Shown: positions 13,113 through 35,382 of the stretch, one piece after another | Layout: each line of letters begins with the position of its first letter | Position numbering within the stretch: position 1 is the stretch's first letter | Assembly: GCA_025363575.1 (NCBI GenBank) | Contig: JANYDM010000021.1 | Coordinates: forward strand, 11,060-75,059 | Direction of reading: 5' to 3' | DNA length: 64,000 nt | Source: Betaproteobacteria bacterium | GTDB lineage: Bacteria; Pseudomonadota; Gammaproteobacteria; Burkholderiales; SG8-41 | Program-made: the position numbers and the translations under genes | The notes under the pieces: generated by a model | Database searches by the model: none | What the model was told of the DNA's origin: nothing | What the model saw: the letters and a program-made list of their open reading frames with translations, nothing else

Positions 13113-13120
13113 CGTGATTA

Positions 13121-13154
13121 CTAATCCCGATTACTGAATCCCGGATCCTGAATC
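13121..13154 (+). repeat. Heptad-periodic half-element (right arm only) before livM
   Basis: The bases immediately 5' of the livM ATG read as consecutive 7-mers CTAATCC, CGATTAC, TGAATCC, CGGATCC, then TGAATC directly abutting ATG. The pattern, pyrimidine bias and position match the right arms of the full inverted repeats before livF, the PaaK-like gene, aceF and maf. No complementary left arm was found in the 8 bases after the livH stop. No Shine-Dalgarno is visible for livM. Confidence 0.7.
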
Positions 13155-14219
13155 ATGTTCTATCGCGAAGTCGGTGAATTCAAAAGTACGTACGCGGCCG
13201 ATCAGGTGTTATTGCCGATCCGGCAGGACCGCTATTTCGTCTGGGCCGTCATCCTGTTTGCATTCATCGGCGTGCCCCTCTGTGCAAATTCGTACTGGTT
13301 CAGCGCCATCCTGATCCCGTTTCTGATCCTCTCGCTGGCCGCGCTGGGCTTGAACCTGCTGGTCGGCTACTGCGGGCAGATTTCGTTTGGCACCGGTGGA
13401 TTCATGGCGGTCGGCGCCTATGCGGCCTACAACCTGGGATTGCGCGTGCCCGGACTCAATCCAATCGTCGCGTTCCTGCTGGCCGGCGGTTGCGCGACAC
13501 TCGTCGGTATTCTTTTCGGCGTGCCGAGCCTGCGCATCAAGGGCTTTTATCTCGCGGTAGCGACGCTTGCCGCGCAATTCTTCCTCGACTGGGTGTTCAG
13601 CCGCATCGCGTGGTTCACCAATTACACGCCGTCGGGTTCGCTCAATGCGCCGCCTGTGACGTTGTTCGACTTCACGTTCGACACGCCGTTGCGCAAATAT
13701 CTTTTGTGCCTTTCGTTTGCGGCCGTTTTTGCATTGCTCGCGCGCAATCTTGTGCGCGGCCGCCTGGGCCGCTCGTGGATGGCAATCCGCGACATGGACG
13801 TCGCTGCGGAAATCATCGGCATCCGCCCGCTGTATGCGAAGCTGTCGGCGTTCGCTGTCAGCTCGTTCTTCATCGGCGTCGCGGGCGCCTTGTGGGCGTT
13901 TGTGCACCTGGGCTCGTGGGAGCCGCTCGCCTTCGACGTCAACCGCTCGTTCAGCCTGCTCTTTATGGTCATCATCGGCGGCTTGGGTTCGATACTCGGC
14001 AGTTTTCTGGGCGCGGCGTTTATCACGCTGCTGCCGCTGTTCCTGAATCAGTTTCCGGCGTGGCTGGGGCTGCACTGGTCGACGGCGCTGATTGCCAATC
14101 TGGAATCGATGATATTCGGCGCGCTGATCGTGTTTTTCCTGATCGTCGAGCCGCTGGGACTGGCCCGCCTGTGGCGGATTGCCAAGGAAAAGCTGCGCTT
14201 GTGGCCGTTTCCGCACTAG
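13155..14219 (+). CDS. livM: Branched-chain-type ABC transporter permease (LivM family)
   Basis: Second membrane permease, 354 aa with a soluble N-terminal stretch of about 30 residues followed by 9-10 hydrophobic segments. The LivM hallmark GYCGQISFGTGGFMAVGAY is at about residues 73-91, and GGLGSILGSFLGAAF forms the ATPase-contacting loop. The ATG at 13155 directly follows a heptad-repeat half-element and has no visible Shine-Dalgarno, so translation may depend on coupling to livH. Confidence 0.92.
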   Translation: MFYREVGEFKSTYAADQVLLPIRQDRYFVWAVILFAFIGVPLCANSYWFSAILIPFLILSLAALGLNLLVGYCGQISFGTGGFMAVGAYAAYNLGLRVPGLNPIVAFLLAGGCATLVGILFGVPSLRIKGFYLAVATLAAQFFLDWVFSRIAWFTNYTPSGSLNAPPVTLFDFTFDTPLRKYLLCLSFAAVFALLARNLVRGRLGRSWMAIRDMDVAAEIIGIRPLYAKLSAFAVSSFFIGVAGALWAFVHLGSWEPLAFDVNRSFSLLFMVIIGGLGSILGSFLGAAFITLLPLFLNQFPAWLGLHWSTALIANLESMIFGALIVFFLIVEPLGLARLWRIAKEKLRLWPFPH

Positions 14220-14355
14220 CGGCGCGAGCGCTTGCGCCGGCGGGTGGCAGTCAATACACTTTGCGCTCTACGTTTCACCGGCGCCCGATTCCAGATGAGC
14301 GCATAGTTCGATTTACCGGCAACAGACCGGAACGGCACAACCAAAGGAGGCAGTC

Positions 14356-15690
14356 ATGAGCAGCTTCATCACGTGGCAACGCGCATTGTTACTGATACTC
14401 GCCGCCGGTGCGCTGGGCGGCACGGCAACTGCCTACGCGCAGGCAAATGACCAGTTCGTCCCCGTGCTCGTCTACCGCACGGGCGCGTACGCTCCGAACG
14501 GCGCGCCATGGGCGAACGGGTTCGTCGATTACCTGAACCTCGTCAACGAGCGCGACAAAGGCATCAACGGCGTAAAAATCGCCTACGAAGAATGCGAGAC
14601 CGGTTATGCGACCGATCGCGGCGTCGAATGCTACGAGCGCCTGAAAGGCAAAGGGCCGACGGGTGCGGCGGCGTTCAATCCGCTGTCGACCGGCATCACG
14701 TTCGCGCTGACCGAGAAAGCGCCGGTCGACAAGATCCCGGTCATCACCATGGGTTATGGCCGTTCGGAATCCGCCGACGGCAGCGTGTTCACGTGGAATT
14801 TCCCTTTGCTCGGCACGTACTGGACGGCGGCCGACGTAATCATGCATCAGATCGCCAACAAACTCGGCGGCTACGACAAACTGAAGGGCAAGAAAGTCAC
14901 GCTGGTCTATCACGACTCGCCGTACGGAAAAGAGCCAATCCCGTTGTTGACTGAGCTTGCCAAGCGCCATGGTTTCGATTTCAAGTCGCTGCCGGTGACG
15001 GCGCCTGGCGTCGAGCAGAAAGCAACCTGGCTGCAGATACGTCAGGATCGTCCCGATTTCGTTCTGCTGTGGGGCTGGGGCGTGATGAACTCAACCGCGA
15101 TCAAGGAAGCGGTCGCGGTCAACTATCCGCGCGACCAAATGTACGGCGTGTGGTGGTCGGGCGCCGAGCCCGACGTGCTGCCGGCGGACGCGGGCGCTAC
15201 CGGCTATAACGCTGCAGCGCTGCAGCACTCGTCAGGCCAGACTTCGGTGCATGCGGACATCCTTAAAAATGTTTACGACCGCAACAAAGGCAGCGGCAAG
15301 AAAGAAGAAATAGGCACGGTGTTGTACAACCGAGGCATGATCAACGCGATGGTCACCGTCGAAGCGATACGCACCGCGCAGGTCAAGTACGGCAAGAAGC
15401 CGCTCACCGGTGAGCAGGTGCGCTGGGGCATTGAAAACCTGAACCTCGATCAGGCGCGTCTGCGCCTGCTTGGTTTCGGCGGCCTTATGCAACCGTTGAA
15501 GCTGTCGTGCAACGACCACGAAGGCGCGCGCATGGCGCGCATCCATCAGTGGGATGGCAGCAAATGGGTCTACGTGTCGGACTGGATTGAAGGCAACAAC
15601 AAATTGTTGCGGCCCATGGTCGAAGACGCAGCCAAGCGCTATGCGAAGGAAAAGAACATAACGCCGCGCGATTGCGCGAAAGTGACCTGA
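14356..15690 (+). CDS. Substrate-binding protein of the HAAT ABC transporter
   Basis: Periplasmic ligand-binding protein, 444 aa. It has a clear signal peptide (basic start, hydrophobic core, cleavage near TAYAQA at about residue 28) and a type I periplasmic-binding fold with PVLVYRTGAYAPNGAPWANG and GYGRSESADGSV. A strong AAAGGAGG at 14343 precedes the start. It is longer than LivK (about 370 aa) and resembles receptors that sit in clusters with acyl-CoA ligases, so an organic acid ligand is more likely than leucine (inference). The 136 bases before it contain an imperfect hairpin at 14221-14238 and no clear promoter. Confidence 0.88.
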   Translation: MSSFITWQRALLLILAAGALGGTATAYAQANDQFVPVLVYRTGAYAPNGAPWANGFVDYLNLVNERDKGINGVKIAYEECETGYATDRGVECYERLKGKGPTGAAAFNPLSTGITFALTEKAPVDKIPVITMGYGRSESADGSVFTWNFPLLGTYWTAADVIMHQIANKLGGYDKLKGKKVTLVYHDSPYGKEPIPLLTELAKRHGFDFKSLPVTAPGVEQKATWLQIRQDRPDFVLLWGWGVMNSTAIKEAVAVNYPRDQMYGVWWSGAEPDVLPADAGATGYNAAALQHSSGQTSVHADILKNVYDRNKGSGKKEEIGTVLYNRGMINAMVTVEAIRTAQVKYGKKPLTGEQVRWGIENLNLDQARLRLLGFGGLMQPLKLSCNDHEGARMARIHQWDGSKWVYVSDWIEGNNKLLRPMVEDAAKRYAKEKNITPRDCAKVT

Positions 15691-15695
15691 ACTCA

Positions 15696-15782
15696 CGGTG
15701 ATGAGCAATCGGTGATGGGCGATGGGTTGATGCGGGTGGGCCGTAGTTTTCCCCATCACCCATCACCGATTGCTCATCACCG
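15696..15782. repeat. Perfect 24-base inverted repeat between the binding-protein gene and livF
   Basis: Left arm 15696-15719 and right arm 15759-15782 are exact reverse complements over 24 bases, with a 39-base loop that itself continues the pairing imperfectly (GATGGG opposite CCCATC). The left arm repeats the word GGTGATG twice at 14-base spacing, followed by GGCGATG. It starts 5 bases after the upstream stop and ends 8 bases before the livF ATG. There is no T-tract, so it is not a classic terminator. Confidence 0.9.
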
Positions 15783-15790
15783 CCTTTCCC

Positions 15791-16618
15791 ATGTCTGCCG
15801 TACTTGAGACCGATCCCGCCGGCGTTTTGCTGGCGGTCAACAATATCGAGGTCATCTACGATCACGTAATTCTCGTGCTCAAGGGCGTATCGCTGGAGGT
15901 GCAGGAAGGTAAGATCGTCGCCCTGCTCGGCGCCAATGGCGCGGGCAAATCGACAACGCTCAAATCGATTTCCAACCTGCTCAAAGCCGAGCGCGGCGAC
16001 GTGACCAAGGGAACGATCGAGTTCCGCGGCCAACGTGTCGACCAGTTGAATCCCGCCGAGCTCGTCAAGCGCGGCGTAGTGCAGGTGATGGAGGGGCGCC
16101 ATTGTTTCGCCCATCTCACCGTCGAAGAAAATCTGCTGACCGGCGCGTTCGCGCGCAGCCGCCGAGGCGACATCGGCGCCGATCTGGAGAAAGTTTATGC
16201 GTATTTCCCGCGCCTGAAGCAGCGGAGAGCGAGCCAGGCCGGCTACACGTCGGGGGGCGAGCAGCAGATGACAGCGATCGGCCGGGCGCTGATGGCGAGC
16301 CCGTCGATGATCCTGCTCGACGAGCCGTCGATGGGGCTCGCGCCGCAGATCGTCGAGGAGATTTTCGCTATCGTGCGCGACCTGAATCAAAAGGAGCGCG
16401 TCAGCTTTTTGCTCGCCGAGCAGAACACGCACATCGCCCTGCGCTACGCGGATTACGGCTACATTCTCGAAACCGGCCGCGTGGTAATGGACGGCAGCGC
16501 CGCGGAGCTGTCGAGCAATGAAGACGTCAAGGAGTTTTACCTCGGCTTGAGCGCCGGCGCGCGCAAGAATTATCGCGACGCCAAGCACTATCGGCGCCGC
16601 AAGCGCTGGCTGGCGTGA
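15791..16618 (+). CDS. livF: Branched-chain-type ABC transporter ATPase 2 (LivF family)
   Basis: Second ATPase of the importer, 275 aa. Walker A GANGAGKST (47-55), signature SGGEQQMTAIGRAL and Walker B MILLDEPSMGLAP match LivF. The ATG at 15791 is preferred; an in-frame TTG at 15770 would lie inside the right arm of the inverted repeat. No Shine-Dalgarno is seen in front of the ATG. The C-terminus (RKNYRDAKHYRRRKRWLA) is longer and more basic than in LivF proper, as in carboxylate-cluster versions. Confidence 0.92.
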   Translation: MSAVLETDPAGVLLAVNNIEVIYDHVILVLKGVSLEVQEGKIVALLGANGAGKSTTLKSISNLLKAERGDVTKGTIEFRGQRVDQLNPAELVKRGVVQVMEGRHCFAHLTVEENLLTGAFARSRRGDIGADLEKVYAYFPRLKQRRASQAGYTSGGEQQMTAIGRALMASPSMILLDEPSMGLAPQIVEEIFAIVRDLNQKERVSFLLAEQNTHIALRYADYGYILETGRVVMDGSAAELSSNEDVKEFYLGLSAGARKNYRDAKHYRRRKRWLA

Positions 16619-16623
16619 GAATG

Positions 16624-16704
16624 CAGGATTCAGGAGTCAGGATTCGGGATTCAGAGAATTCCCGGCTTTGTCATTGAATCCTGACTCCTGAATTCCGGAT
16701 CCTG
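16624..16704. repeat. Heptad-periodic inverted repeat between livF and the PaaK-like gene
   Basis: The left arm runs in 7-base steps: CAGGATT, CAGGAGT, CAGGATT, CGGGATT (16624-16651). The right arm 16676-16704 is complementary over 18 continuous bases, then contains one extra heptamer before pairing resumes with TCCTG. The arms therefore differ by a whole 7-base unit, which suggests growth or loss in heptamer steps. The next start codon is 11 bases beyond the right arm. Confidence 0.88.
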
Positions 16705-16715
16705 AGCGAAGCAAC

Positions 16716-17954
16716 ATGGATTATTACGATAAGCTTGAAACGCGCGACCCCGCGCAGCGCGAGGCGGAGCAGTTTGCCGCGCTACGCGCGCAAATCGCCA
16801 ATGCCCAAGGTAAGGCGCCTTTCTTCGCGCGCGTGCTGGCCGGTGTCGACGCGGCGGGGATCAAGGACCGTGCTGCGCTCGCTGCATTGCCGGTCACGCG
16901 CAAGGCGGATCTGATCGACCTGCAAAAAGGCGCGCCGCCATTTGCCGGCATGACGGCGGCGCCGCTGTCTGCATTGAGCCGTCTGTATATGTCGCCGGGG
17001 CCGATGTTCGATCCCGAGGGCAAGCGCGCGGATTATTGGCGGCTCGCGCGCGCGATGTTCGCTGCGGGTTTTCGCGCGGGCGAGCTCGTCCACAATACTT
17101 TTTCGTACCACTTCACGCCGGCCGGATTCATGGCAGACATGGGCGCGCAAGCCATTGGCTGTCCGGTATTTCCCGGCGGCACAGGGCAGACCGAAATGCA
17201 GGTCGCCGCAATCGCGGCCCTCAGGCCGCAGTGCTATATCGGCACACCGTCGTTTCTGCGCATCATTCTGGAAAAAGGCGACGAGCTCAAAGCCGACTTA
17301 TCCAGTTTAAAAAAAGCCATGGTATCGGCGGAGGCGCTGCCAGCAGCATTGCGCGCGTGGCTCAACGGCCGGGGTGTAGCGACGCTGCAATGCTATGCGA
17401 GCGCCGACCTCGGACTTATCGCTTACGAATCACCCGCGCAGGAAGGCATGATCGTCGACGAGGGCGTGATCGTCGAACTGGTGCGTCCCGGCACCGGCGA
17501 ACCGGTCGCCGCCGGTGAAGTCGGCGAGATCGTGGTGACCACGCTGGCGCCGGAATATCCGCTGATACGCTTCGCCACCGGTGATCTGTCGGCGGGCCTT
17601 GCCGGCGCGAGTCCCTGCGGCCGTACCAATATGCGGATAAAGGGCTGGCTGGGCCGCGCCGACCAGACCGCCAAAGTCAAAGGTATGTTCGTGAAACCTT
17701 CGCAGATGGCCGACGTCGCGAAACGCCACGCCGAGATCCTGAAGTACCGGCTGGTGATCGATCACGACGACCGCAAAACGGACCGCATGACGCTCAACTG
17801 CGAAATATCCGGCGCCGGCAGCACGGCGCTCGCCGACGGCATTGCCGCAACGATACGCGACGTTTGCAATCTGCGCGGCGAGGTCGCATTCAAGCCGGCC
17901 GGCTCGCTGCCGAACGACGGCAAAGTCATCGACGACGTCAGAAAGTACGACTAA
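16716..17954 (+). CDS. Phenylacetate-CoA ligase-like AMP-binding protein with altered P-loop
   Basis: 412 aa member of the PaaK branch of adenylate-forming enzymes, recognised by NTFSYHFTPAGFMADMGAQA, the FPGGTGQTE region, IRFATGDLS and the C-terminal RIKGWLGRADQTAKVKGMFV lid. PaaK proteins carry a Ser/Thr-rich P-loop of the SSGTTGKP type; here the matching stretch reads YMSPGPMFDPEG (about residues 91-102), so ATP handling may be changed. It follows livF after an inverted repeat and precedes beta-oxidation genes. It is probably an acid-CoA ligase for the imported substrate, but a degenerate or differently acting enzyme cannot be excluded. Confidence 0.82.
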   Translation: MDYYDKLETRDPAQREAEQFAALRAQIANAQGKAPFFARVLAGVDAAGIKDRAALAALPVTRKADLIDLQKGAPPFAGMTAAPLSALSRLYMSPGPMFDPEGKRADYWRLARAMFAAGFRAGELVHNTFSYHFTPAGFMADMGAQAIGCPVFPGGTGQTEMQVAAIAALRPQCYIGTPSFLRIILEKGDELKADLSSLKKAMVSAEALPAALRAWLNGRGVATLQCYASADLGLIAYESPAQEGMIVDEGVIVELVRPGTGEPVAAGEVGEIVVTTLAPEYPLIRFATGDLSAGLAGASPCGRTNMRIKGWLGRADQTAKVKGMFVKPSQMADVAKRHAEILKYRLVIDHDDRKTDRMTLNCEISGAGSTALADGIAATIRDVCNLRGEVAFKPAGSLPNDGKVIDDVRKYD

Positions 17955-17972
17955 TATGGTGACAAGCGCTTG

Positions 17973-18044
17973 CCACAGAGCTCACAGAGTTCAAGATGCT
18001 GAACGGTGGTCGTCGTTGCGTTTTTCGCTCTGTAAACTCTATGC
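17973..18044. repeat. Inverted repeat of CACAGAG / CTCTGTG words before the dehydrogenase
   Basis: The left arm has CACAGAG twice at 9-base spacing (17974-17980 and 17983-17989). The right arm has CTCTGTAAACTCTATG (18028-18043), complementary at about 13 of 16 positions. The arms are imperfect, separated by about 38 bases, and lie in the 141-base gap between the PaaK-like gene and the dehydrogenase. This resembles the other intercistronic repeats in layout but has 9-base rather than 7-base spacing. Confidence 0.6.
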
Positions 18045-18095
18045 CCTCCGGGGCGATTATTGTTTTTTGAATCGGGTTTCAATCTTCAACTCCTC

Positions 18096-18863
18096 ATGCA
18101 AATTAAAAACAGCGTATTCCTGATTCCCGGCGGCGCATCGGGCCTGGGTGCGGCGACCGCGCAAACGCTGGTCGCCGCAGGCGGCAAGGTGATGCTGGCC
18201 GATCTCAATCGCGAAGCCGGCGAGAAATTCGCCGCGGGCCTAGGCGCCAACGCAAAATTTGCGGTCGCGGACGTCACGAATGAATCTCAGGTGCAACAAG
18301 CCGTCGACGCGGCAATTGCCGCATTCGGCGGCCTGCACGGACTCGTCAACTGCGCCGGCATAGCGCCCGGCGAGCGGGTGGTCGGCCGGAACGGTGCGCA
18401 CACACTCGAAACATTCAGCCGCGTGATCAACATCAACCTGATCGGCAGCTTCAATACGCTGCGGCTGGCGGCGAACGCGATGGCCAAAAATACGCCGAAC
18501 GCCGACGGCGAGCGCGGCGTGATCATTAACACCGCGTCGGTTGCCGCCTACGAAGGACAGATAGGCCAGGCCGCATACAGCGCATCGAAAGGCGGCATCG
18601 TCGCCATGGCATTGCCGATTGCGCGCGAGCTCGCCAAGCTCGGCATTCGCGTGATGACGATAGCGCCGGGCATTTTCGACACGCCTATGTTGCAAGGCAT
18701 GAGCGAAGAGATACGTGCGTCGCTCGGTGCGCAGGTACCCTTCCCATCGCGGTTGGGCGAACCCGCCGAGTATGCGCGGCTCGCCGCCTTCATCGTGGAG
18801 AACCCCATGCTCAATGCCGAAACGATCCGCCTCGACGGCGCGATCCGCATGACCGCGAAGTAA
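18096..18863 (+). CDS. Short-chain 3-hydroxyacyl-CoA dehydrogenase (HSD10 type)
   Basis: NAD-dependent dehydrogenase of the SDR superfamily, 255 aa. It has the cofactor loop GGASGLG (12-18), NCAG, and the catalytic serine with YSASK (Tyr-x-x-x-Lys). The C-terminal half, GTP-free [26 protein letters not shown] region and IRLDGAIRM end, matches type II 3-hydroxyacyl-CoA dehydrogenases that oxidise 3-hydroxy- and 2-methyl-3-hydroxyacyl-CoA. The ATG at 18096 gives the usual start [13 protein letters not shown]. Together with the enoyl-CoA hydratase 20 bases downstream it supplies two steps of beta-oxidation. Confidence 0.88.
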
Positions 18864-18882
18864 CGGCGCAAAGGAGTTCAGC

Positions 18883-19671
18883 GTGATCTACCAAAACATC
18901 ATTCTCGAGCACGCCGAGGCGGGCAAGGTCGGCGTGCTGACAGTCAATCGTCCGAAGGCGCTCAATGCGCTCAATGCCGCCACGCTCGACGAGCTGTTGA
19001 ACGCACTGACGCGTGTTGCAGAAGATCGCGAAGTGCGCGTGCTGCTCGTCACCGGCGCGGGCGACAAGGCATTTATCGCCGGCGCTGACATCGCGGCGAT
19101 GCAGGGCATGAGCGCGCTGGAGGCGCAGACGTTCTCCGAAAAAGGCCAGCGCGTGATGCAGGCGATCGAAGCGCTGGCTGTTCCCGTTATCGCACTGGTC
19201 AACGGCTACGCGCTGGGCGGCGGCTGCGAGCTCGCGATGAGCTGCGACTGGATCATCGCGTCGGAAGGCGCCGTATTCGGCCAGCCGGAAGTCAACCTCG
19301 GCATTCCGCCCGGCTTCGGCGGCACGCAAAGACTCGCGCGGCTAGTCGGCCGTGCCCGCGCGCTCGAACTCGTCATCACCGGGCGCAACGTGAAGCCCGA
19401 CGAAGCCCTGCGCATCGGCCTCGTCAACGAAGTCGTAGCCGGCGCGCAACTGACCGGGAAGGGCCTGGAGATGGCCAGGCTGATCGTCGCCAAAGCGCCG
19501 GTGGCGGTGCGCGTCGCCAAGCAGGCAGTGCAGCGCGGACTGGACCTCGATCTCGCGAACGGCTGCGTGCTCGAGACGAGCCTGTTCGCGTTCGCGTTCG
19601 GCACTGCCGACCGCAAGGAAGGCATGACCGCGTTTCTCGAGAAGCGCGCGCCGAAATTCGAGGGCCGCTGA
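18883..19671 (+). CDS. Enoyl-CoA hydratase/isomerase family protein
   Basis: Crotonase-fold enzyme, 262 aa, predicted to hydrate a 2-enoyl-CoA. The oxyanion-hole motif FIAGADIAAM and the two catalytic glutamates are seen, in LGGGCELAMSCDW and in FGQPEVNLGIPPGFGG. The start is a GTG at 18883 behind a good AAGGAG at 18871. It lies 20 bases after the dehydrogenase and one base before the AhpD-like gene, so it is one transcription unit. Confidence 0.92.
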   Translation: MIYQNIILEHAEAGKVGVLTVNRPKALNALNAATLDELLNALTRVAEDREVRVLLVTGAGDKAFIAGADIAAMQGMSALEAQTFSEKGQRVMQAIEALAVPVIALVNGYALGGGCELAMSCDWIIASEGAVFGQPEVNLGIPPGFGGTQRLARLVGRARALELVITGRNVKPDEALRIGLVNEVVAGAQLTGKGLEMARLIVAKAPVAVRVAKQAVQRGLDLDLANGCVLETSLFAFAFGTADRKEGMTAFLEKRAPKFEGR

Positions 19672-19672
19672 C

Positions 19673-20257: not shown

Positions 20258-20320
20258 ATTGCGCGCTTGCTAAGCACGTACGCCGCCAGCCGCGGAGGCC
20301 GCAAAGCACCATAGCGCCGA

Positions 20321-20329: not shown

Positions 20330-20418
20330 TCGTCTGCGGCCGGCGCCACAAGCGCGTGGCCGCGACCGAAAAGTCCCCGTCTATAGCGGGACGCCGCAAA
20401 CCCCACGAAGGTGATGCC

Positions 20419-23088
20419 ATGGATATGCAGGACATTCCTGATACCGACCCGCAGGAAACCCAGGAGTGGCTGGAGGCGCTCGACGGCGTCTTGAAGCACG
20501 AAGGCGCGCAGCGCGCGCATTTTCTGCTCGAGCAGCTCGTCGACAAGGCACGTCGCAGCGGCGCCTATATTCCGTTCAGCGCCAATACCGCATACCTGAA
20601 CACCATTCCGCCGGGGAGCGAAGAGCACCTGCCCGGCGATGGCGAACTCGAGCACCGCATCCGCTCGTATGTGCGCTGGAACGCCATGGCAATGGTGGTA
20701 CGCGCCAACAAGCACACCAATGTCGGCGGCCATATTGCGAGCTTTGCGTCGGCGGCAACGCTCTACGACGTCGGCTTCAATCATTTCTGGCGCGCGCAAA
20801 ACGAGAAATTCGGCGGCGATCTCGTGTTCGTGCAGGGTCATTCCGCACCGGGCGTCTACGCGCGCGCATTCATGCTGGGCCGGCTCACGGCCGAGCAGAT
20901 GGACAATTTCCGCCAGGAAGTCGACGGCAAAGGACTGTCTTCCTATCCGCATCCCTGGCTGATGCCCGATTTCTGGCAGTTCCCGACGGTGTCGATGGGA
21001 CTGGGACCGCTGATGGCAATCTACCAGGCGCGCTTCATGCGTTACATGCGCGACCGCGGCATACTCGAAGCGCAGGGCCGCAAGGTATGGGCATTCATGG
21101 GCGACGGCGAGATGGACGAGCCCGAATCGCTGGGCGCGATCTCGCTCGCGGGACGCGAAAAACTCGACAACCTGATCTTCGTCATCAACTGCAACCTGCA
21201 GCGCCTCGATGGCCCGGTGCGCGGCAACGGCAAGATCATCCAGGAACTCGAGTCCGATTTCCGCGGTGCCGGCTGGAACGTGATAAAGGTCATCTGGGGC
21301 GGCTATTGGGACGAGCTCTTCATGCGCGACACCAAGGGCATACTCTTGAAGCGCATGGCGGAGTGCGTCGACGGCGAGTATCAAACGTTCAAGTCGAAAG
21401 ACGGCGCCTACGTGCGCAAGCATTTTTTCGGTAAATATCCAGAGCTTCTCGAAATGGTGTCGACGATGTCGGACGACGACATCTGGCGGCTGAACCGCGG
21501 CGGTCACGATCCCTACAAAGTCTATGCCGCGTACGCGGCTGCGATGAAGCACACAGGCCAGCCGACGGTGATACTTGCGAAGACCATCAAAGGCTACGGC
21601 ATGGGCGAGGCCGGCGAATCGCAGAACATCACCCATCAGCAGAAAAAGATGGGCACGTCGTCGATCAAGGCTTTCCGCGACCGCTTTGCGCTGCCGGTGC
21701 CCGACGACCAGCTCGAAGAAGTCCCTTACCTGACTTTCGCCGAAGGCTCGCCCGAACTCAATTACATGCGCGAGAAGCGCCAGTCGCTCGGCGGCTACCA
21801 GCCCGCGCGCCGACGCAAGGCCGCGGCCCTCGAAGTGCCGGCGCTGTCGGCATTCGAAACGTTGTTGAAAGCGAGCGGCGCAGGACGCGAACTGTCAACG
21901 ACGATGGCGTTCGTGCGCATCCTTACGACGCTGGTGCGCGACAAGAAAATCGGCCAGTACGTGGTGCCCATCGTGCCGGATGAATCGCGCACGTTCGGCA
22001 TGGAAGGCATGTTCCGGCAGCTCGGCATCTATTCGCACGTCGGCCAGCTCTACACGCCGCAGGACGCAGACCAGCTCATGTTCTACAAGGAAGACCAGAA
22101 AGGGCAGGTGTTGCAGGAAGGCATCAACGAACCGGGCGCGATGTCGTCGTGGATTGCGGCGGCAACGTCGTACAGCACGCACGGCGTGTCGATGATTCCG
22201 TTCTATATTTTCTATTCGATGTTCGGTTTCCAGCGCGTCGGCGATCTGTGCTGGGCCGCCGGCGACATGCGGGCGCGCGGTTTTCTGCTCGGCGGCACCG
22301 CCGGCCGCACGACGCTGAATGGCGAAGGTCTGCAGCACGAAGACGGGCACAGCCACCTGCTGGCGGCAACCATACCGAACTGCGTGGCTTACGATCCGAC
22401 TTACGCGTACGAACTCGCGGTAATCATTCAAGACGGCCTGCGCCGCATGTACCAAGAGCAGGAAGACGTTTATTACTACATCACCGTGATGAACGAGAAC
22501 TACGAGCATCCGGCCATGCCGGAAGGTGTCGAGAAGGGCATCCTGAAAGGGATGTATCTGCTGCGCGAAGGCAAGGCTAAAAAGAACGCGCCGAAAGTAC
22601 AATTGCTCGGCAGCGGCGTGATACTGCGTGAAGTGATTGCGGGCGCCGAACTGCTCGAGAAGGATTTCGGCATCGCGGCGGACATCTGGAGCGTCACCAG
22701 CTTCAACGAATTGCGCCGCGACGGCCTTGATGCACAGCGCTGGAACATGCTGCATCCGGAAGCCGAGCCACGCCTCTCGCATATCGAAACCTGCCTTAAA
22801 GACCGCGAGGGCCCGGTCATCGCATCGACGGACTACATGAAGATGTATGCCGACCAGGTGCGAGCGTTCCTGCCCGCCCGTCATTTTCACGCGCTCGGCG
22901 CCGATGGTTTCGGGCGCTCGGACACGCGCGAAAAGCTGCGCCGTTTTTTCGAGGTTGATCGCAACTACGTGGCGGTCGCGGCGCTGAAAGCGCTGGCCGA
23001 CATGGAGCTTGTGCCGCGCAAGACGGTGACCGAAGCGATCAAGAAATATAGCGTCGACCCCGACAAGCCCAACCCGACCACTGTTTGA
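20419..23088 (+). CDS. aceE: Pyruvate dehydrogenase E1 component (homodimeric type)
   Basis: Thiamine-diphosphate-dependent decarboxylase of pyruvate in the PDH complex, 889 aa (E. coli 887). The ThDP motif starts GDGEMDEPESLG (228-239) and closes with the NCN of FVINCNLQ. The frame is open upstream, but the ATG at 20419 gives the usual MDMQDIPDTDPQETQEWLEA start. It is followed by aceF after a heptad-type inverted repeat that begins on the aceE stop codon. Confidence 0.97.
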   Translation: MDMQDIPDTDPQETQEWLEALDGVLKHEGAQRAHFLLEQLVDKARRSGAYIPFSANTAYLNTIPPGSEEHLPGDGELEHRIRSYVRWNAMAMVVRANKHTNVGGHIASFASAATLYDVGFNHFWRAQNEKFGGDLVFVQGHSAPGVYARAFMLGRLTAEQMDNFRQEVDGKGLSSYPHPWLMPDFWQFPTVSMGLGPLMAIYQARFMRYMRDRGILEAQGRKVWAFMGDGEMDEPESLGAISLAGREKLDNLIFVINCNLQRLDGPVRGNGKIIQELESDFRGAGWNVIKVIWGGYWDELFMRDTKGILLKRMAECVDGEYQTFKSKDGAYVRKHFFGKYPELLEMVSTMSDDDIWRLNRGGHDPYKVYAAYAAAMKHTGQPTVILAKTIKGYGMGEAGESQNITHQQKKMGTSSIKAFRDRFALPVPDDQLEEVPYLTFAEGSPELNYMREKRQSLGGYQPARRRKAAALEVPALSAFETLLKASGAGRELSTTMAFVRILTTLVRDKKIGQYVVPIVPDESRTFGMEGMFRQLGIYSHVGQLYTPQDADQLMFYKEDQKGQVLQEGINEPGAMSSWIAAATSYSTHGVSMIPFYIFYSMFGFQRVGDLCWAAGDMRARGFLLGGTAGRTTLNGEGLQHEDGHSHLLAATIPNCVAYDPTYAYELAVIIQDGLRRMYQEQEDVYYYITVMNENYEHPAMPEGVEKGILKGMYLLREGKAKKNAPKVQLLGSGVILREVIAGAELLEKDFGIAADIWSVTSFNELRRDGLDAQRWNMLHPEAEPRLSHIETCLKDREGPVIASTDYMKMYADQVRAFLPARHFHALGADGFGRSDTREKLRRFFEVDRNYVAVAALKALADMELVPRKTVTEAIKKYSVDPDKPNPTTV

Positions 23089-23183
23089 GGAGTGAGGAAT
23101 GAGGATTGAGGATCGAGGGAGAGGGCGGCGCACGATGTGCGACATTAGTGTTACTCAATCCTCAATCCTGCATTCTCAATCCT
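23086..23183. repeat. Heptad-periodic inverted repeat between aceE and aceF
   Basis: Starting on the aceE stop codon the sequence runs in 7-mers: TGAGGAG, TGAGGAA, TGAGGAT, TGAGGAT, CGAGGGA (23086-23120). The right arm reads CTCAATC, CTCAATC, CTGCATT, CTCAATC (23154-23181), largely complementary. It ends 10 bases before the aceF ATG. The purine-rich left arm contains several Shine-Dalgarno-like words; the aceF start itself has none. Confidence 0.9.
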
Positions 23184-23185: not shown

Positions 23186-23193
23186 CGAATATC

Positions 23194-26059: not shown

Positions 26060-26063
26060 GGCA

Positions 26064-26148
26064 GGATCGAGGAATGAGGAATGAGGATTGAGGATCGAGC
26101 AAGCCTTAGTGAGCTTTCCTCAATCCTCAATCCATTATCCTCAATCCC
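26064..26148. repeat. Heptad-periodic inverted repeat between rlmH and maf
   Basis: The left arm starts 4 bases after the rlmH stop: GGATCGA, GGAATGA, GGAATGA, GGATTGA, GGATCGA (26064-26098). The right arm reads TCCTCAA, TCCTCAA, TCCATTA, TCCTCAA, then TCCC directly abutting the maf ATG (26117-26148). The arms are complementary apart from a few substitutions. The words are those of the aceE-aceF element read in another phase, so the two share an origin. Confidence 0.9.
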
Positions 26149-28220: not shown

Positions 28221-28238
28221 TACGACGGAGCAGATCCC

Positions 28239-29714: not shown

Positions 29715-29733
29715 AGTTGCGTCGGCCGCCGGC

Positions 29734-31698
29734 TCAGGCGACTTTGGCGACAGCCGCCGGCGGGGTGGCCGCCGCAGCCGCGGCGGCGGTGTCGCCGTCG
29801 AGGCTCAGCTTGATGCCGGACAACACCCTCGCCTGATCCTCGAGCGCGATCTGCAGCTTGTCCAAGTGTTTCATGCGGTCTTCGACCGAGCTGATGTTGT
29901 CGCGGATTTTCTTGAAATTTTCGATCCGCTTGGCGAGCACTTTTTCGTGCTCCTTGATCTGCAGGTTGAGCGGATTCAGTGCCGACTTGAGCCACGACTC
30001 GGCATCCATGCGCGTCATTTCGAAGATCTGGCGCGCCTCGCCGACAAGGGTTTCGTAAAAACGCTTGACCAGGAAGTCCTTGTATTTGGCCATGTTGACC
30101 GGATCGTGGCAAAAAGTGCGCGCGGTTTCCTGCATGCCTGTCATCGCCAGTGCGTGTTTTTCCAGGTTGAGCGGCGGCGGGGACAGCCGGGCAAAACCGA
30201 ATTTTTCGTGAAAATGTGCGTACGTCGCGTCGACCAGATTCTTGATCTGGTTCGCGAAGTTGAGGATCTTCGCCGACACGCCGGAGAAATGCTGGAACAA
30301 CATTTGCATGCTTTTCCACATGCCTGCCGTCGTCCACGCGTCCTCGATGAATTTGCGGTCTTTGTTCAGAATATCGTCCAGCCGGTCGTCGTCGAGCTGT
30401 TTTAACAGCGTCGCGCCCTGGTTGGTCACGGTATTGAAAGTCGAGCGGAAAGTCTGGATGGTTTCCTGGTACGCCTTGCGATCGCCTTCGAGGCGCGTGA
30501 CCATCGACTGTGCCATGGTGCGGCTTTTGCCGGACATCGCGGCGAGTTCCTTGAGTTCCGTCTGCGTCGCAGTCAACTGATTGCCCACCGCAAGGCGCGA
30601 GGCGTCAACCATGCTGCCGATTTCGCGTTGCACCGCCGCGCGCATGATTTCCTGCTTGGCGGGAATAATTTCGGCCGCCAGCAGGTATTCGAGCTGCTCG
30701 ATGCCGCTCCTCGTCAGCAGTGCATTGTCGCCGCGCACGCGCGCGAGCAGGGCTTTCTGCGCGGAGATTGCCATGACGTGCGTGCGCGGCAGGACAAGCA
30801 GCGAGGATGTCTGCTCGAGCTGGCGCTCGACGTCGCTCGCGATCTCGGCGTCGGACTTGAGGTCATCCCACATAAGGTCGATCTTGTTCAGGACTGCAAT
30901 GCGGCGCGTCGCCGCCGGCTGCACGTATTTCTGCCACACATCGAGATCCGATTTGGTAACCCCGGTGTCCATCGCTAGCAGGAACAGCACGGCGTGAGCG
31001 TTCGGTATCATCGACAGCGTGAGCTCCGGCTCCGTGCCGAGCGCGTTCAGCCCCGGCGTGTCGAGGACGACGAGACCGTTCTTCAGCAGCGGATGCGGAT
31101 AGCTGATCATAGCGTGGCGCCACGCCGGGATTTCGACCTTGTCGCCGCCCTGCCTGGCCATGGTCGAAACCATCGGATCATTGTCGTCCCACAGGCCGAG
31201 CGTGCGCGCCTCGTCGATGCCGACCATCTTGACTTCGACCAGATGTTTCATCGCCTCGGCCATATCCTCGCGCGAGTCGATGTTCAGCCTCACCTTGATC
31301 CATTCGACATGCTGGCGTTTGAGCGCGCTTACCGTCTCCTGGCGGCTGCGCGTTTCGATCGGCAGCAACCGCATGTACGGCTCTTCGGCCGGATCGTAAA
31401 AAATTTCGGTCGGGCACATGGTCGTGCGGCCGACGTTTGACGGCAGCAGGCGTTGCTTGAAATCGGAGAAAAACATCGCGTTGATGAGCTCGGTCTTGCC
31501 ACGCGAAAACTCGGCGAGGAATGCCAGCGTCATTCGATCATTGCGCAGGCTTTCGATCAGATCATAGATGCGGAGAGATTGCTGGATATCGGCATAGCCG
31601 TTGGTATCGAGCCAGCCCTTGTAGGACTCGATCCCCGAGATCATCTGGTCGCGCCATTCCTGGTAATGGGCGACTTCTTTTTCGAGCAGACTCGTCAT
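29734..31698 (-). CDS. Dynamin-like GTPase, motif-complete member of a tandem pair
   Basis: Large dynamin-family protein, 654 aa. The GTPase motifs are largely present: P-loop AEFSRGKT (62-69, with A in place of the first G), RTT in the switch region (91-93), DTPG (213-216) and NKID (271-274). Long helical regions follow (about 340-640), ending in an Ala-rich tail. It probably remodels or tethers inner membrane in a nucleotide-dependent way. It lies 157 bases downstream of a paralogue with about the same layout that lacks these motifs, suggesting hetero-oligomers. Its 5' gap has no strong promoter or Shine-Dalgarno. Confidence 0.88.
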   Translation of the reverse strand: MTSLLEKEVAHYQEWRDQMISGIESYKGWLDTNGYADIQQSLRIYDLIESLRNDRMTLAFLAEFSRGKTELINAMFFSDFKQRLLPSNVGRTTMCPTEIFYDPAEEPYMRLLPIETRSRQETVSALKRQHVEWIKVRLNIDSREDMAEAMKHLVEVKMVGIDEARTLGLWDDNDPMVSTMARQGGDKVEIPAWRHAMISYPHPLLKNGLVVLDTPGLNALGTEPELTLSMIPNAHAVLFLLAMDTGVTKSDLDVWQKYVQPAATRRIAVLNKIDLMWDDLKSDAEIASDVERQLEQTSSLLVLPRTHVMAISAQKALLARVRGDNALLTRSGIEQLEYLLAAEIIPAKQEIMRAAVQREIGSMVDASRLAVGNQLTATQTELKELAAMSGKSRTMAQSMVTRLEGDRKAYQETIQTFRSTFNTVTNQGATLLKQLDDDRLDDILNKDRKFIEDAWTTAGMWKSMQMLFQHFSGVSAKILNFANQIKNLVDATYAHFHEKFGFARLSPPPLNLEKHALAMTGMQETARTFCHDPVNMAKYKDFLVKRFYETLVGEARQIFEMTRMDAESWLKSALNPLNLQIKEHEKVLAKRIENFKKIRDNISSVEDRMKHLDKLQIALEDQARVLSGIKLSLDGDTAAAAAAATPPAAVAKVA

Positions 31699-31855
31699 AG
31701 TTCATCAAATAAGGCGGGCAGTTTTTACCGGCACGCCCGGGATTCGGGAAAATCCGAACCTTTTCCGGCGCTTATGCCCACCGCGCCACATGATAACCCA
31801 GCGCGGGCGCCACGCCTACCGGCGCGGGCGAACCCACCGCGAGCCCAGCACGCGC

Positions 31856-33745
31856 TTACCCCGACATGGCGGGTCTGATCTCGCCCAAAGGCCTGGTCGC
31901 TGTAGGAGCCGTCAACGCAAGATTGGTGCGCAACTGATCGAGCTGTTCTCCCTGTTTTTTTAATGCTACTCGCTGCGCGTCGAGTTGCTTGATGCGCTCC
32001 TGCACCGAGGTCAGGTTGTCTTTCATGTCGCGCAGGTTTTCAACGCGTTTGAGCATGAGCTTTTGACGTTCCATGATCTGGCCGTTGAGCGGGCCCAGCG
32101 CGCCGCGCAGCCAATGCTCCGTGTCCAGGCGCGTCAGCTCGAACGTCTGCCGGGCTTCTTCGACCAGCCCGTCGTAAAACTTTTTGACGAGGAAATCCTT
32201 GTAGGTCGCGATGTTGATCGGGTCGTGGCAGAATGCGCGCGCATTGGCCTCGAGCGCGTGCATGGATTCGAGGTGCTTTTGCAGTGTCAGCGGCGGCGGG
32301 CTCAGTTTGGCGAGCCCGAAGTTTTCGTGAAACTGCTGGTAAATGCCTTCGACCGCCTCGCGCAGCTTGACGGCGTAATTGAGGATTTTCTCGACCTGGG
32401 TGGTGAAGTAGCCGAAGAGTCCCTGGATGCTCTTCCACATGCCGGCGGTCGTCCACGCGCCCTGGATGAATTCGCGGTCGTGCGAAAGAATTTCCTCGAT
32501 GCGATCGTCATGCAGCGTCGCCAGCAGCTCCTGGCCTTTGGCGGTCAGATCGGAATAGGTGACATTGAACGCGGCCACGCTCTTCTGGTAGGTCTTGCGC
32601 TCGCTTTCGAGCCGCGTCAGCATGTCCTGCGCGACGTTCTGGTTCTTGCCGGCGGTCGACGTCAAATCCTGCATTTCCTTGATGGTCGCTATGAACCGCG
32701 CTGCGACCGCCTGGCGGGCTGACTGCACCAGCGGGCCGATTTCCTTGGCCACGGAGGTCAGCAGCAGCGACTGACGTTCAGGCACCAGTTTTTCCGCATG
32801 CAGCTTTTCGAGCTGCTCGATGCCGGACGTGGTTTCGCTGCCTTCGTCGTGCGCCAACCGGCCGGCCACGGCCTGCTTGATGGCGAGCGACAACACGTTG
32901 GATTCCGGTATCGCGAAAGCCTGCGCGACTGCTTTCTCGGCTGCCGCGTCCGCGCCCGACCCCCTGTCGAGCACCGCAAACTTGTGCGCTTGCGAATTCT
33001 GCACGTATTGCTTCCACACATCCTGTGCGGCGGGCGTTAGCTCTTTGCCCAGCACCATCAACAGCGACTGGGCGCTTGAAGCAATACGCATAGCCACCTC
33101 AGGCTCCGCCGACAGCATCTGCGAGCCGGGGCAATAAAGCGCGATGAGGCCGCTTTTCAGCATCGGATGCGGCAGGTTGATAAGCGCATAGCGCCACGCC
33201 GGTATCATCACGGCGTCGCCGCTGCGCTCGACATTGATCAGATTAAGCGATTTCGCCTCGTCTACGCTCACCGCGCGCGATTCCATCAGGCTTTGCGTCG
33301 CCTCGGCGATGGATTCAGGCGATTCGGGATTCAGGCGCATGGTGATCCAGTCCACCGGGCTGCGCCGCAGGGTGGCGATGCTGTCTTCACGCTTGCGCGT
33401 TTCCATCGGCAGCACGCGCACGTACGGCGATTCGCTGGGATCGTAGAATATTTCGGTGGCGCACAAGAACTCGCAGCCGGGCCCCAGCGGCAGCAGGCCG
33501 CCCGGCAGGCTTGCAAACAGCAGGGCATTGATCAGGCCGATCTTGTCTTCGGCCGATTCACCCATGAACGCCATGCGGATGCGGTCGTTGCGCAGACCTT
33601 CGACCAGATCGTAAATACGCAGCGTCTGTTCGATGTCGGCCTGGCCGTACGCGTCCTGCCACGTACGAAATTCATCGATCGAAGCAACCAGTTTTTCGCG
33701 CCAGCTGGTGAACTGGGCAATGCGCTGTGCTAGTTGGTGCGGCAT
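31856..33745 (-). CDS. Dynamin-like pseudo-GTPase paralogue
   Basis: 629 aa paralogue of the downstream dynamin-like protein, collinear through both the G domain and the helical stalk (shared TEIFYDP, IPAWR, DRKFI/DREFI...AWTTAGMWKS, FGxAxLSPPPL). The GTPase motifs are lost: the P-loop position reads GESAEDKI (62-69), the switch RTT becomes CEF, DTPG becomes YCPG (204-207), and NKID becomes DRGS. Reading frame and stalk are intact, so it is kept under selection rather than decaying. It is probably a regulatory or structural partner of the downstream GTPase. Confidence 0.86.
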   Translation of the reverse strand: MPHQLAQRIAQFTSWREKLVASIDEFRTWQDAYGQADIEQTLRIYDLVEGLRNDRIRMAFMGESAEDKIGLINALLFASLPGGLLPLGPGCEFLCATEIFYDPSESPYVRVLPMETRKREDSIATLRRSPVDWITMRLNPESPESIAEATQSLMESRAVSVDEAKSLNLINVERSGDAVMIPAWRYALINLPHPMLKSGLIALYCPGSQMLSAEPEVAMRIASSAQSLLMVLGKELTPAAQDVWKQYVQNSQAHKFAVLDRGSGADAAAEKAVAQAFAIPESNVLSLAIKQAVAGRLAHDEGSETTSGIEQLEKLHAEKLVPERQSLLLTSVAKEIGPLVQSARQAVAARFIATIKEMQDLTSTAGKNQNVAQDMLTRLESERKTYQKSVAAFNVTYSDLTAKGQELLATLHDDRIEEILSHDREFIQGAWTTAGMWKSIQGLFGYFTTQVEKILNYAVKLREAVEGIYQQFHENFGLAKLSPPPLTLQKHLESMHALEANARAFCHDPINIATYKDFLVKKFYDGLVEEARQTFELTRLDTEHWLRGALGPLNGQIMERQKLMLKRVENLRDMKDNLTSVQERIKQLDAQRVALKKQGEQLDQLRTNLALTAPTATRPLGEIRPAMSG

Positions 33746-33932
33746 AAGGCGTCCATATTGGCAAGTGGCGCCGCGATGGCAGGTGAGACGTCGTTCAGTT
33801 CGACGATTTTGCGCCGGCCGCGCGCACCCTGATAGTTTGTGACTTTGCTCATTAGCAGGTTAAACCATTGATGTAAAAAGTCAATCAGCGTTCGCCGGCG
33901 CGGTGTGGCTTCATTTTCATCGCCAAGTCCGG

Positions 33933-34508
33933 CTACAGCAGGCGCCCGATAGTCGTCTCCAGCCAAACCAACGGCACCGCGAGTATGAGCTGGCAGATCA
34001 GCAACACGAATAACGGGGACAAATCGACATTGGCGATGGTGGGCACCCGTCGCTGAAACGGCCGCAAAAAAGGACGCGTAACGCTGTTAAGCAGCGGCGC
34101 CACCTCACTGTGCGGATTTATCCAGCTCAGAACAGCCTGCAATATCACCGCACCCATGATCACGTACACCGTCAGCCGCGTGAGGTTAATCAGCGCAAGC
34201 GCGGTTATCACCCCAGTCGCGACGGCGGGAGCCCCGCCCAGTTCGTAGCCCTTCACCAGGAGAACGAGCCACAATTGCAGCATCGCCACCAGCCACGCGA
34301 TGACCACGGTCGCCACGTCGACGCCCCACCAGCCCGGGATTGCGCGCCGTGCCGGCAAAACCAGAAAATCGGTGACCGCGCGCACGAATTCGGACAATTG
34401 ATTGCGCGCCGGCGCGCGCGCCCACTGCAGAATCACGCGCAGCAGCAAGGCGAACACGAACAGGTCGCCGGCTGTCGTGATCAAAAAAATCAGAGTTTGC
34501 GCCAGCAT
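33933..34508 (-). CDS. YggT-family membrane protein
   Basis: 191 aa integral membrane protein with two YggT repeats, each a pair of hydrophobic segments with an NPxxxxPLLNxVTRPFLRPFQR-like loop. The second repeat loop (WINPHSEVAPLLNSVTRPFL) is clear. The ATG at 34508 is preferred; the frame remains open upstream but there overlaps proC. It is 13 bases downstream of proC in the common yggS-proC-yggT order. The function is poorly known; relatives are linked to osmotic or division-related membrane roles. Confidence 0.9.
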   Translation of the reverse strand: MLAQTLIFLITTAGDLFVFALLLRVILQWARAPARNQLSEFVRAVTDFLVLPARRAIPGWWGVDVATVVIAWLVAMLQLWLVLLVKGYELGGAPAVATGVITALALINLTRLTVYVIMGAVILQAVLSWINPHSEVAPLLNSVTRPFLRPFQRRVPTIANVDLSPLFVLLICQLILAVPLVWLETTIGRLL

Positions 34509-34521
34509 CGCGTTATCCGCC

Positions 34522-35334
34522 CTAATCCTTGCCCAGTTCTTCGCCCATCTCGCGCGAACGCGCGTCCGCAGCTTTAACGGCGCGCACAATGGCTTCTTTA
34601 ATGCCCGCGCTCTGCATGTTCTCCAGCGCCGCCGCGGTGGTGCCGCCTTTTGACGTGACGCGCGCGCGCAAAGTCGCTGCGTCCTCCGCGCTGGCGGCGG
34701 CAAGCTTGACCGCGCCGGCAAAGGTGTCGAGCGCAAGGCTGCGCGCCGCGGCGGGCGCCAGCCCCAGATCGAGCGCCGCCTGCTGCAGGGCTTCGATGAA
34801 ATAAAAAACATAGGCGGGTCCGCTGCCGGACACCGCCGTGACCGCGTCCAGCTGCGCCTCGTTTTCCACGCGCAGCGTGACGCCAACGGCGCCGAGTATC
34901 GCCTCGCTGCGCGCAATATCCTCGGCCGTCGCCCCTGGCTGCGCAAATATTCCGCTGCAGCCCGCACCCACCAGCGCCGGCGTATTCGGCATGGCGCGCA
35001 CCAGCCGTGCATAGCCGCCCAGCCAGCGCGCGAGGTCGACGCTGCGGATGCCGGCGGCGATACTGATGACCAGCTGTTGCGAGAGGTGCGGTCGCAGCGC
35101 GGTTGCGACTTCGCGCGTGTTCTGCGGCTTGACCGCCAGCACGATGCAGTCTGCGGCCGCAGCGGCGACATCCACGCGGTCGAAAGTCGTTACGCCGAAC
35201 TGTTGCGCCAGGCGTGCGCGCGCGGCAGCGTCGATCTCGACCGCGCGCAAAGTCTGCGCGGCATAACCTTTCTTCAGCAAGCCGCCGATGATCGCGGTGG
35301 CCATGTTGCCGCCGCCGATGAATGTGATGTTCAT
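34522..35334 (-). CDS. proC: Pyrroline-5-carboxylate reductase
   Basis: Last step of proline synthesis, NAD(P)H-dependent; 270 aa. The Rossmann motif FIGGGNMATAIIGGL is at the N-terminus, and the C-terminal SGPAYVFYFIEAL and TSKGGTTAAAL motifs are diagnostic. The ATG at 35334 is chosen because the family begins at this MNITFIGGGNM; upstream in-frame sequence is repeat DNA. The start directly follows a heptad-type half-element and has no Shine-Dalgarno. Confidence 0.95.
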   Translation of the reverse strand: MNITFIGGGNMATAIIGGLLKKGYAAQTLRAVEIDAAARARLAQQFGVTTFDRVDVAAAAADCIVLAVKPQNTREVATALRPHLSQQLVISIAAGIRSVDLARWLGGYARLVRAMPNTPALVGAGCSGIFAQPGATAEDIARSEAILGAVGVTLRVENEAQLDAVTAVSGSGPAYVFYFIEALQQAALDLGLAPAAARSLALDTFAGAVKLAAASAEDAATLRARVTSKGGTTAAALENMQSAGIKEAIVRAVKAADARSREMGEELGKD

Positions 35335-35382
35335 TTGATGGTAATGGAAGATGAGCGATGGTAATGGAGTGATGGTTATTGG
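35335..35382 (-). repeat. Heptad-periodic half-element before proC
   Basis: On the coding (minus) strand the bases before the proC ATG read CCAATAA, CCATCAC, TCCATTA, CCATCGC, TCATCTT, CCATTAC, CATCAA then ATG: a 7-base rhythm with the same pyrimidine bias and the same position as the right arms elsewhere. The end of yggS (GCGATGA ATGAGTA A) resembles a short left arm reaching into the coding sequence, so pairing across the gap is possible but weak. Confidence 0.6.

Follow-up and report, generated by a model that had tools for sequence, protein, structure and literature searches.

Several gaps between consecutive genes in a 64,000-nucleotide stretch of DNA from a Betaproteobacteria bacterium (contig JANYDM010000021.1; the whole stretch is referred to here as the window) contain inverted repeats whose arms are chains of 7-nucleotide (nt) words. 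A preliminary description, made from the letters alone, portrayed these repeats as hairpins with a strict 7-base rhythm that may couple the translation of neighboring genes, which raises the question of whether they are conserved control switches or a by-product of the way in which DNA is copied. Analysis of the window and of related genomes suggests that the elements bear a closer resemblance to rapidly changing by-products of DNA copying than to conserved switches. The reading that we prefer, at a probability of about 0.43, is that they are hairpin arrays generated beside gene ends by slippage and fold-back copying, that they turn over quickly, and that any effect in RNA is secondary.

Short-unit inverted arrays in the window and in related genomes

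A scan of the whole window bears out the presence of inverted repeats in the four gaps that had been named (livK/livF, livF/AMP-ligase, aceE/aceF, and rlmH/maf). Pairs I1-I6, among the matches listed, all fall in these gaps and have arms of 26-32 nt that are 78-97% complementary; Pfam matches are consistent with the names of the surrounding genes. When the window is matched against itself, at least 22 of 28 letters agree at 23 positions for a lag of 7, and at 0 positions for lags of 4-6 and 8-12. Three of the four sites pass a scan for lag-7 arms; 100 windows simulated with an order-3 Markov model yielded 0.14 passing sites on average and never more than 2. A single departing unit (GAGCAAT) keeps the livK/livF site below the lag-7 threshold; the arms of this site still agree at 30 of 31 positions, that unit included. 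Folding of the gaps as RNA gives -43 to -68 kcal/mol (z from -4.2 to -8.9; Table 1), with the whole livK/livF gap at -68.2 kcal/mol, and a search of window positions 12000-37000 against Rfam returned 0 matches at gathering score.

Searches with AceE and Maf placed the window beside a family of 74 genomes (designated by handles such as G060), the nearest members by Maf being G044, G045, and G049 (70-73% identity). Genes were called with a simple in-house caller, which gave 716 genes for 785 kb of G060, and their start positions are approximate. Lag 7 yields 140 heptad regions in the same 785 kb and 4 in a simulated sequence, and lags 6, 8, and 9 yield 27, 10, and 27 in the former, which also contain 177 arms at lag 7 compared with 5, 20, 11, 33, and 13 at lags 5, 6, 8, 9, and 10. 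The elements are concentrated in the gaps between genes: tandem gaps (51.6 kb) hold 68 arms, convergent gaps (27.0 kb) hold 38, and divergent gaps (25.0 kb) hold 25, versus 46 of the 177 in called genes (680 kb), a number that may partly reflect errors of the gene caller. The enrichment in same-strand gaps that the preliminary description proposed to look for is present in G060, and it extends to the other kinds of gap. Heptad arrays were also seen within the aceE match, at the same protein point, in a Gallionellaceae and a Nitrosomonadales metagenome-assembled genome (L031:7139-7190 and L052:12131-12176).

Most elements consist of two inverted arms of 7-nt (or 8-nt) units flanking a loop. Among 66 adjacent period-7 pairs, the arms of a site have a median inverted similarity of 0.724, compared with 0.486 for re-paired arms (maximum of 0.54 in 200 shuffles), and a direct similarity of 0.414. 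Partners and polarity were assessed for 218 intergenic period-7/8 arms of G060, G058, G075, and G045, with G015 and the window left out. An inverted partner at a distance of no more than 150 nt was found for 135 of these arms (~11 expected) and a direct partner for 18. The polarity described for the window extends to these genomes, where the G-rich arm is 5' in 128 of the 134 arms with a partner; the few period-10 pairs break the rule (G-rich left in 2, C-rich left in 5).

The words differ from site to site, as originally noted, and 70 necklace words are distributed over the 177 G060 arms (frequent examples are GAGGATT, GGTGAAC, GGTAAGC, TTGAACC, and CGTGAGT). In the aligned G060 words, three successive positions read T (98% of arms), C or T (99%), and A (70%), which corresponds to TGA or TAA on the complementary strand; the information content is 5.07 bits versus 3.59 in permuted words. 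Within word families the loop-side end of the arm lies at a fixed phase (e.g., GAG in 14 of 15 GAGGATT arms). An exact GAGGATT array was also observed on five viral contigs (L228-L232).

The distribution of unit lengths was surveyed over the 74 genomes with a pattern of four TGA triplets, which matched 8208 times at spacing 7, 2054 times at spacing 8, and 155 times at spacing 6; overlapping matches in one array are counted repeatedly in these totals, and one or two matches in a genome are possibly chance. At least one spacing-7 match was found in 68 genomes and at least one spacing-8 match in 62, with spacing 7 leading in 55 genomes, spacing 8 in 15 (11 of these with at least 20 matches), and a tie in 4. 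A backward control pattern was mostly lower, and higher in some genomes (e.g., G012 and G062) where AGT heptads are abundant. Most of the octads among the matches listed consist of GTGA and four more bases, resembling heptad words lengthened by one purine, and octads outnumber heptads by pattern matches in G075 (186 versus 53) and G046 (73 versus 7). In six sequence sets, the best period of intergenic arms was 7 in 187 cases, 8 in 46, 9 in 27, and 10 in 33, with 1, 3, and 3 cases at periods of 5, 6, and 11; a further 24 arms with a best period of 14 are probably double heptads. Arrays of period 9 (CACAAAGGA, CGCAGAGGA) and of period 10 (CGCAGATGAA, CACAGATGAA), the latter with nearly constant words, occur in gaps among the G060, G058, G075, and G015 loci. 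A universal period-10 word was considered and rejected, tandem CRCAGATRAA being present in 1 of 50 genomes outside the family. Within the window, the AMP-ligase/SDR gap (17955-18095) contains CCACAGAG..CTCACAGAG, then CTCTGT..CTCTATG, by eye a decayed inverted array with a period of ~9. Lag 7 stands out as first described, but the rhythm is not strict, given the departing livK/livF site, the octad-led genomes, and the arrays of period 9 and 10. Likewise, the proposal that period rather than sequence is constrained fits the situation within a genome, where the period outlasts the word, but fails across genomes, since octads outnumber heptads in some of them.

Turnover, pairing, and placement

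The occupant of a given gap changes between relatives. In G045, where the corresponding gene pairs are still adjacent on one contig, GTGAAGG is found at livF/AMP-ligase and aceE/aceF, where the window has CAGGATT and GAGGATT, respectively; the livK/livF gap contains no element in place of the GGTGATG element of the window, and livH/livM holds a full GTGAACG element where the window has a decayed single arm. In G049, with 93% AceE identity, no arm lies between the aceE and aceF alignments. The rlmH/maf gap, compared by eye in 25 of 28 cases (no Maf motif was found in the other 3), shows GAGGATT in the window and G045, a GATAGAC-like word in G044, and GGGGCTA, GAGTAAT (left arm only), or no element in others. 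In the 10 of these 25 gaps with a palindrome, arms score 19.5 against their own partner versus 14.1 against foreign ones. The apparent proC/yggS gap of L002 and L009 carries GTGACTG and GTGAATG arrays. Two individual rlmH/maf gaps were also recorded: in L106 the array word GGGGCTA echoes the final codons and stop of the gene (AGG GGC TAG), as if grown from the gene end, and L095 has another hairpin instead (CCCTCTCCCCCG TTTTG CGGGGGAGAGGG).

Mirrored variants in the two arms were sought in the 50 of 66 period-7 pairs with an arm similarity of at least 0.6 (16 omitted). Both arms departed from the word at 35 paired positions, compared with 30.2 in unit-shuffled controls, and the departures matched in 18 cases versus 17.97. 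Because mirrored variants do not exceed the control, the paired structure is not visibly maintained. By the tests made, the arms of an element have their word in common but largely decay independently.

Placement was examined in gaps of at least 40 nt in the six sequence sets. An arm of period 7-10 occupies 120 of the 603 tandem gaps, 53 of the 201 convergent gaps, and 39 of the 237 divergent gaps. A constant placement between upstream stop and downstream start, as the preliminary description had it, is contradicted by the elements in convergent and divergent gaps. In G060 and G058, which have the most arms among the genomes read, convergent gaps are filled no less often than tandem gaps. A same-strand regulator as a general rule is rejected by these gap classes; G075 (23 of 153 tandem, 1 of 31 convergent, and 0 of 49 divergent gaps) and G045 (13 of 99, 1 of 16, and 1 of 22) are nonetheless tandem-biased. 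The suggested translation coupling is not supported, given the occupied convergent gaps of G060 and G058, the other words or empty gaps of relatives, and the outcome of the mirrored-variant test. Elements in tandem gaps start a median of 5 nt past the stop (46 elements), in distance tests that omit 17 of 93 adjacent pairs (those inside called genes or without both neighbors). The downstream genes had been said to lack Shine-Dalgarno (SD) sequences, and in G060 SD-like sites are indeed fewer among genes with a heptad arm ending at most 30 nt upstream (6 of 39, versus 221 of 671 others), but the presence of the C-rich arm at that position may be enough to explain this, and the starts are approximate. 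Stop codons recur in the phase of the arrays: 57 of the 710 G060 genes are followed by a stop of any kind at +7 and 51 by one at +14, versus 10-16 at offsets 5, 6, 8, and 9, and in octad-rich G075 32 of 390 genes are followed by one at +8, versus 21 and 22 at +7 and +9. No clear peak was detected in G058, G045, or G015. The phasing arises in part because a reading frame entering such an array must end there.

Table 1. Arms in the four gaps of the window and two decayed single arms, with positions in the window
Feature	Position	Strand	Evidence
livK/livF left arm; GGTGATG words plus one GAGCAAT unit	15696..15726	+	inverted pair I1 (15696-15726 with 15752-15782), 31 nt, 97% complementary
livK/livF right arm; mirrors left arm, including departing unit	15752..15782	+	inverted-repeat scan, unit-shuffle comparison, folding (z -8.9)
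livF/AMP-ligase left arm; CAGGATT words; first base is last base of livF stop codon	16618..16652	+	lag-7 arm, I4; inverted pair 16618-16645 with 16676-16703, 28 nt, 86% complementary
livF/AMP-ligase right arm; CAGGAGT variant unit present here too	16676..16703	+	inverted-repeat scan, unit-shuffle comparison, folding (z -4.2)
aceE/aceF left arm; GAGGATT words; aceE stop TGA in phase with unit TGA	23086..23118	+	lag-7 arm, I5; inverted pair 23088-23117 with 23154-23183, 30 nt, 80% complementary
aceE/aceF right arm	23154..23183	+	inverted-repeat scan, folding (z -4.8)
rlmH/maf left arm; GAGGATT words	26063..26099	+	lag-7 arm, I2, I3; inverted pair 26064-26094 with 26117-26147, 31 nt, 81% complementary
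rlmH/maf right arm	26117..26147	+	inverted-repeat scan, folding (z -6.8)
livH/livM gap, single decayed C-rich arm; ATTACTG / AATCCCG / AATCCTG words	13113..13154	+	by eye; weak fold (z -2.8)
proC/yggS gap, decayed single arm; GATGGTA / GATGAGC words	~35337..35400	-	by eye; under lag-7 thresholds

Origin of the elements and competing explanations

Under the slippage and fold-back reading, a short tandem array would first lengthen as slippage adds complete units, the newly made strand being the G-rich one, and the 3' end of the array would then fold back and copy the array, producing a C-rich inverted arm. Such copying would place the same word in both arms with one polarity. The arms would subsequently diverge by mutation until the element is lost or replaced, and some new elements may take words or arms from older ones. 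Gaps would tolerate the elements and coding sequence mostly would not; in mRNA they would fold as strong hairpins, most copies presumably having no conserved job. Observations in favor of this reading are the free choice of word together with matched arms, the single polarity, the turnover at corresponding gaps, the independent decay of the arms, the mostly unrelated loops, and the occurrence of elements outside same-strand gaps. In yeast, template switching between inverted arms is described as homogenising the arms in the available text of one study (PMC8604942).

A number of observations weigh against this reading. Arm matching in the window exceeds that of unit-shuffled arms only at livK/livF (score of 29 versus a mean of 20.8, the 95th percentile), with no excess at livF/AMP-ligase, aceE/aceF, or rlmH/maf, so that recent inverted copying in the window is not proven. 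At rlmH/maf the own right arm is the best partner in just 1 of 10 genomes, because GAGGATT is widespread. The vocabulary is narrower than chance (70 G060 words versus ~152 when letters are permuted within words), and among the 70 unique words TTC (12 versus 2.2) and TGA (24 versus 10.9) are enriched and TAG is depleted (2 versus 11.2); plain slippage predicts neither the narrow vocabulary nor the word motif. A unit length that differs by genome is given no explanation, and elements in tandem gaps lie nearer to the stop in 37 cases versus 8. The order of units agrees slightly more than in shuffles between same-site arms (18.7 versus 18.0 when shuffled, with 0 of 40 shuffles reaching it; 32 of 44 G060 pairs, by a cruder score), and also between same-word arms at different sites (23.8 versus 22.9, standard deviation 0.08, 360 pairs). 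Loops can also be held in common. A comparison of 82 loops yielded 6 pairs at an E-value of 0.05 or better, among them one strong match between octad elements of G075 (36 nt at 94%) and one pair with a 17-nt exact match, and left most loops unrelated. This comparison was not sensitive, having failed to pair the related loops of three GTTCAAG elements of G060 that were detected in a typed-motif search. The unit order common to same-word arms at different sites and the common loops indicate that some copying between sites occurs.

A further point, in favor of the preferred reading, concerns SbcD, part of the hairpin nuclease SbcCD, the absence of which could let hairpins persist but does not explain the period. 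None of the 74 family genomes has an SbcD match over the curated cut-off (weak matches occur in 25), in a search whose control was positive in E. coli and others; among 50 genomes from outside the family, 10 exceed the cut-off. Outside the family, more than 20 pattern matches were found only in G093, G110, and G112, all without SbcD over the cut-off. The link is confounded by kinship, which also counts against the preferred reading. SbcD loss as the cause was set aside as permissive at best, since 16 of 22 outside genomes without a pattern match lack SbcD too, and weak SbcD-like matches do not track heptads within the family (p 0.79).

A function of the hairpins in RNA is possible, without support from the pairing test. 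In its full form, this explanation holds that intercistronic RNA hairpins shield the 3' ends of mRNAs or determine how strongly the downstream gene is expressed, with selection acting only on the strength and position of the stem and leaving the word free. The very stable folds of the window gaps, the stop-side placement, the scarcity of SD-like sites downstream, and the tandem bias of G075 and G045 are all consistent with it. However, mirrored variants do not rise above the control, elements are missing from orthologous gaps of close relatives, they occur often in the convergent gaps of G060 and G058 and also in the divergent gaps of both, and the formation of a stem needs no 7-nt units; we regard this explanation as rather unlikely.

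It is also unlikely that the elements are mobile palindromes, like REP/REPIN or MITE sequences, dispersed by an enzyme that moves or copies them, for instance a Y1 (RAYT-like) transposase. Such dispersal would account for the limited vocabulary, the unit order common to same-word arms across sites, the fixed inner arm ends within word families, the loops in common among three G060 and two G075 elements, and the weak correlation seen with the number of Y1_Tnp matches (Spearman 0.33, p 0.004). The abundance of intergenic palindromes in each genome also resembles REP/BIME/REPIN palindromes and their RAYT transposases as presented in the available texts (PMC3116915, PMC2817692). Unlike REP/REPIN, the present elements lack a common core, and their words and, with the exceptions just named, most of their loops differ. 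A Y1 (RAYT-like) transposase match was found in 52 of 74 family genomes, and several heptad-rich genomes have no match (G038, G045, G063, and G004, despite 329, 164, 266, and 171 heptad-pattern matches), although their completeness is uncertain. The transposase was set aside as the cause because the correlation is weak and the exceptions are several.

Alternatively, a genome-specific molecular ruler might be at work, i.e., a replication or hairpin-processing activity that extends arms in fixed steps (mostly 7 nt, 8 nt elsewhere) and copies the local word to both arms. We consider this decidedly unlikely. If it were true, the repeats would be traces left by an enzyme activity not yet described, and step length would be inherited as a property of the genome.

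Bidirectional termination is improbable. A transcript from either side would run through the G-rich arm first and next through a C-rich arm, poor in G, on which Rho might act; the polarity, which is identical from either strand, the highest occupancy over all sets in convergent gaps, and the location past stops would suit such a role. However, no T run was seen by eye 3' of the four stems, and no terminator-like site was found in the four gaps by a scan restricted to loops of 3-8. In addition, a stable stem would mask the C-rich arm from Rho, and the elements of G075 and G045 are mainly in tandem gaps, where termination would cut off the next gene. It is very improbable that the arrays are all-frame stop cassettes, in which TGA in a 7- or 8-nt unit supplies a stop in every frame and inversion covers both strands. 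The enrichment of TGA, unit lengths of 7 and 8 that are not multiples of 3, the rarity of the spacing-6 pattern, and the gene stops in array phase in G060 and G075 point in this direction. The reading is weakened because TAG, although a stop, is depleted; moreover, words that contain a stop do not clearly exceed the permuted control (32 versus 26.9 of 70), three of five genomes lack a clear phase peak, several common words contain no stop, and period-9 arrays exist. G-quadruplex elements, as put forward for GGGAATC repeats with similar placement and convergent pairing in the available text of Rehm et al. 2015 (PMC4692102), are scarcely credible here and do not apply to most G060 arms, since GGG or CCC occurs in the consensus of just 24 of 177 and the window words (GAGGATT, CAGGATT, and GGTGATG) have no GGG.

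Relation to known heptad repeats and meaning for the family

The closest precedent is the class of GGGAATC / GGGNATC heptads. The available text of Rehm et al. 2015 (PMC4692102) describes GGGAATC heptads from Xanthomonas, with comparable repeats in Nostoc, that are intergenic with the G-rich strand past stops, form 70-75 convergent pairs, are mostly transcribed in Xac, and are of unknown function; it also relates that an excess of heptamers in bacterial genomes was noticed in 2007. The elements described here are alike in their 7-nt tandem units in gaps, convergent inverted pairs, and placement after stops. They differ in that the GGGAATC / GGGNATC repeats, as set out in that text, have one consensus word per genome and are read as G-quadruplexes, whereas dozens of words, mostly without GGG, were found in 785 kb of G060; further differences from that account are the octad variants and the gaps that hold a different word, or stay empty, in relatives. 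The present elements can be read as the heptad class of Rehm et al. with a free word that mostly lacks a GGG tract.

Other heptanucleotide repeats are more distant. The TAACTGA heptamers of marine Beggiatoaceae, according to the available text of MacGregor 2015 (PMC4679880), share the 7-nt unit, the intergenic location, and the paucity of Shine-Dalgarno sites in repeat-bearing gaps, but consist of one fixed word in direct repeats (169 sets, one indirect) near start codons, compared with the inverted arrays of many words seen here. The four- and five-unit elements of Geobacter metallireducens (PMC2700814) are likewise tandem heptanucleotides scattered in the genome; they are characterized in the text available by a fixed consensus, with one class also inside genes, and are proposed to be regulator or RNA elements. 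A search of the literature by title and abstract opening found no account of inverted heptads or octads in which the word is free.

In these elements the word, unlike the step length, varies almost freely, and within one family the predominant step is 7 in some genomes and 8 in others. With the step separated from the sequence in this way, its cause becomes testable. The turnover of the elements in the family is also a caution against taking such intergenic hairpins for conserved regulators.

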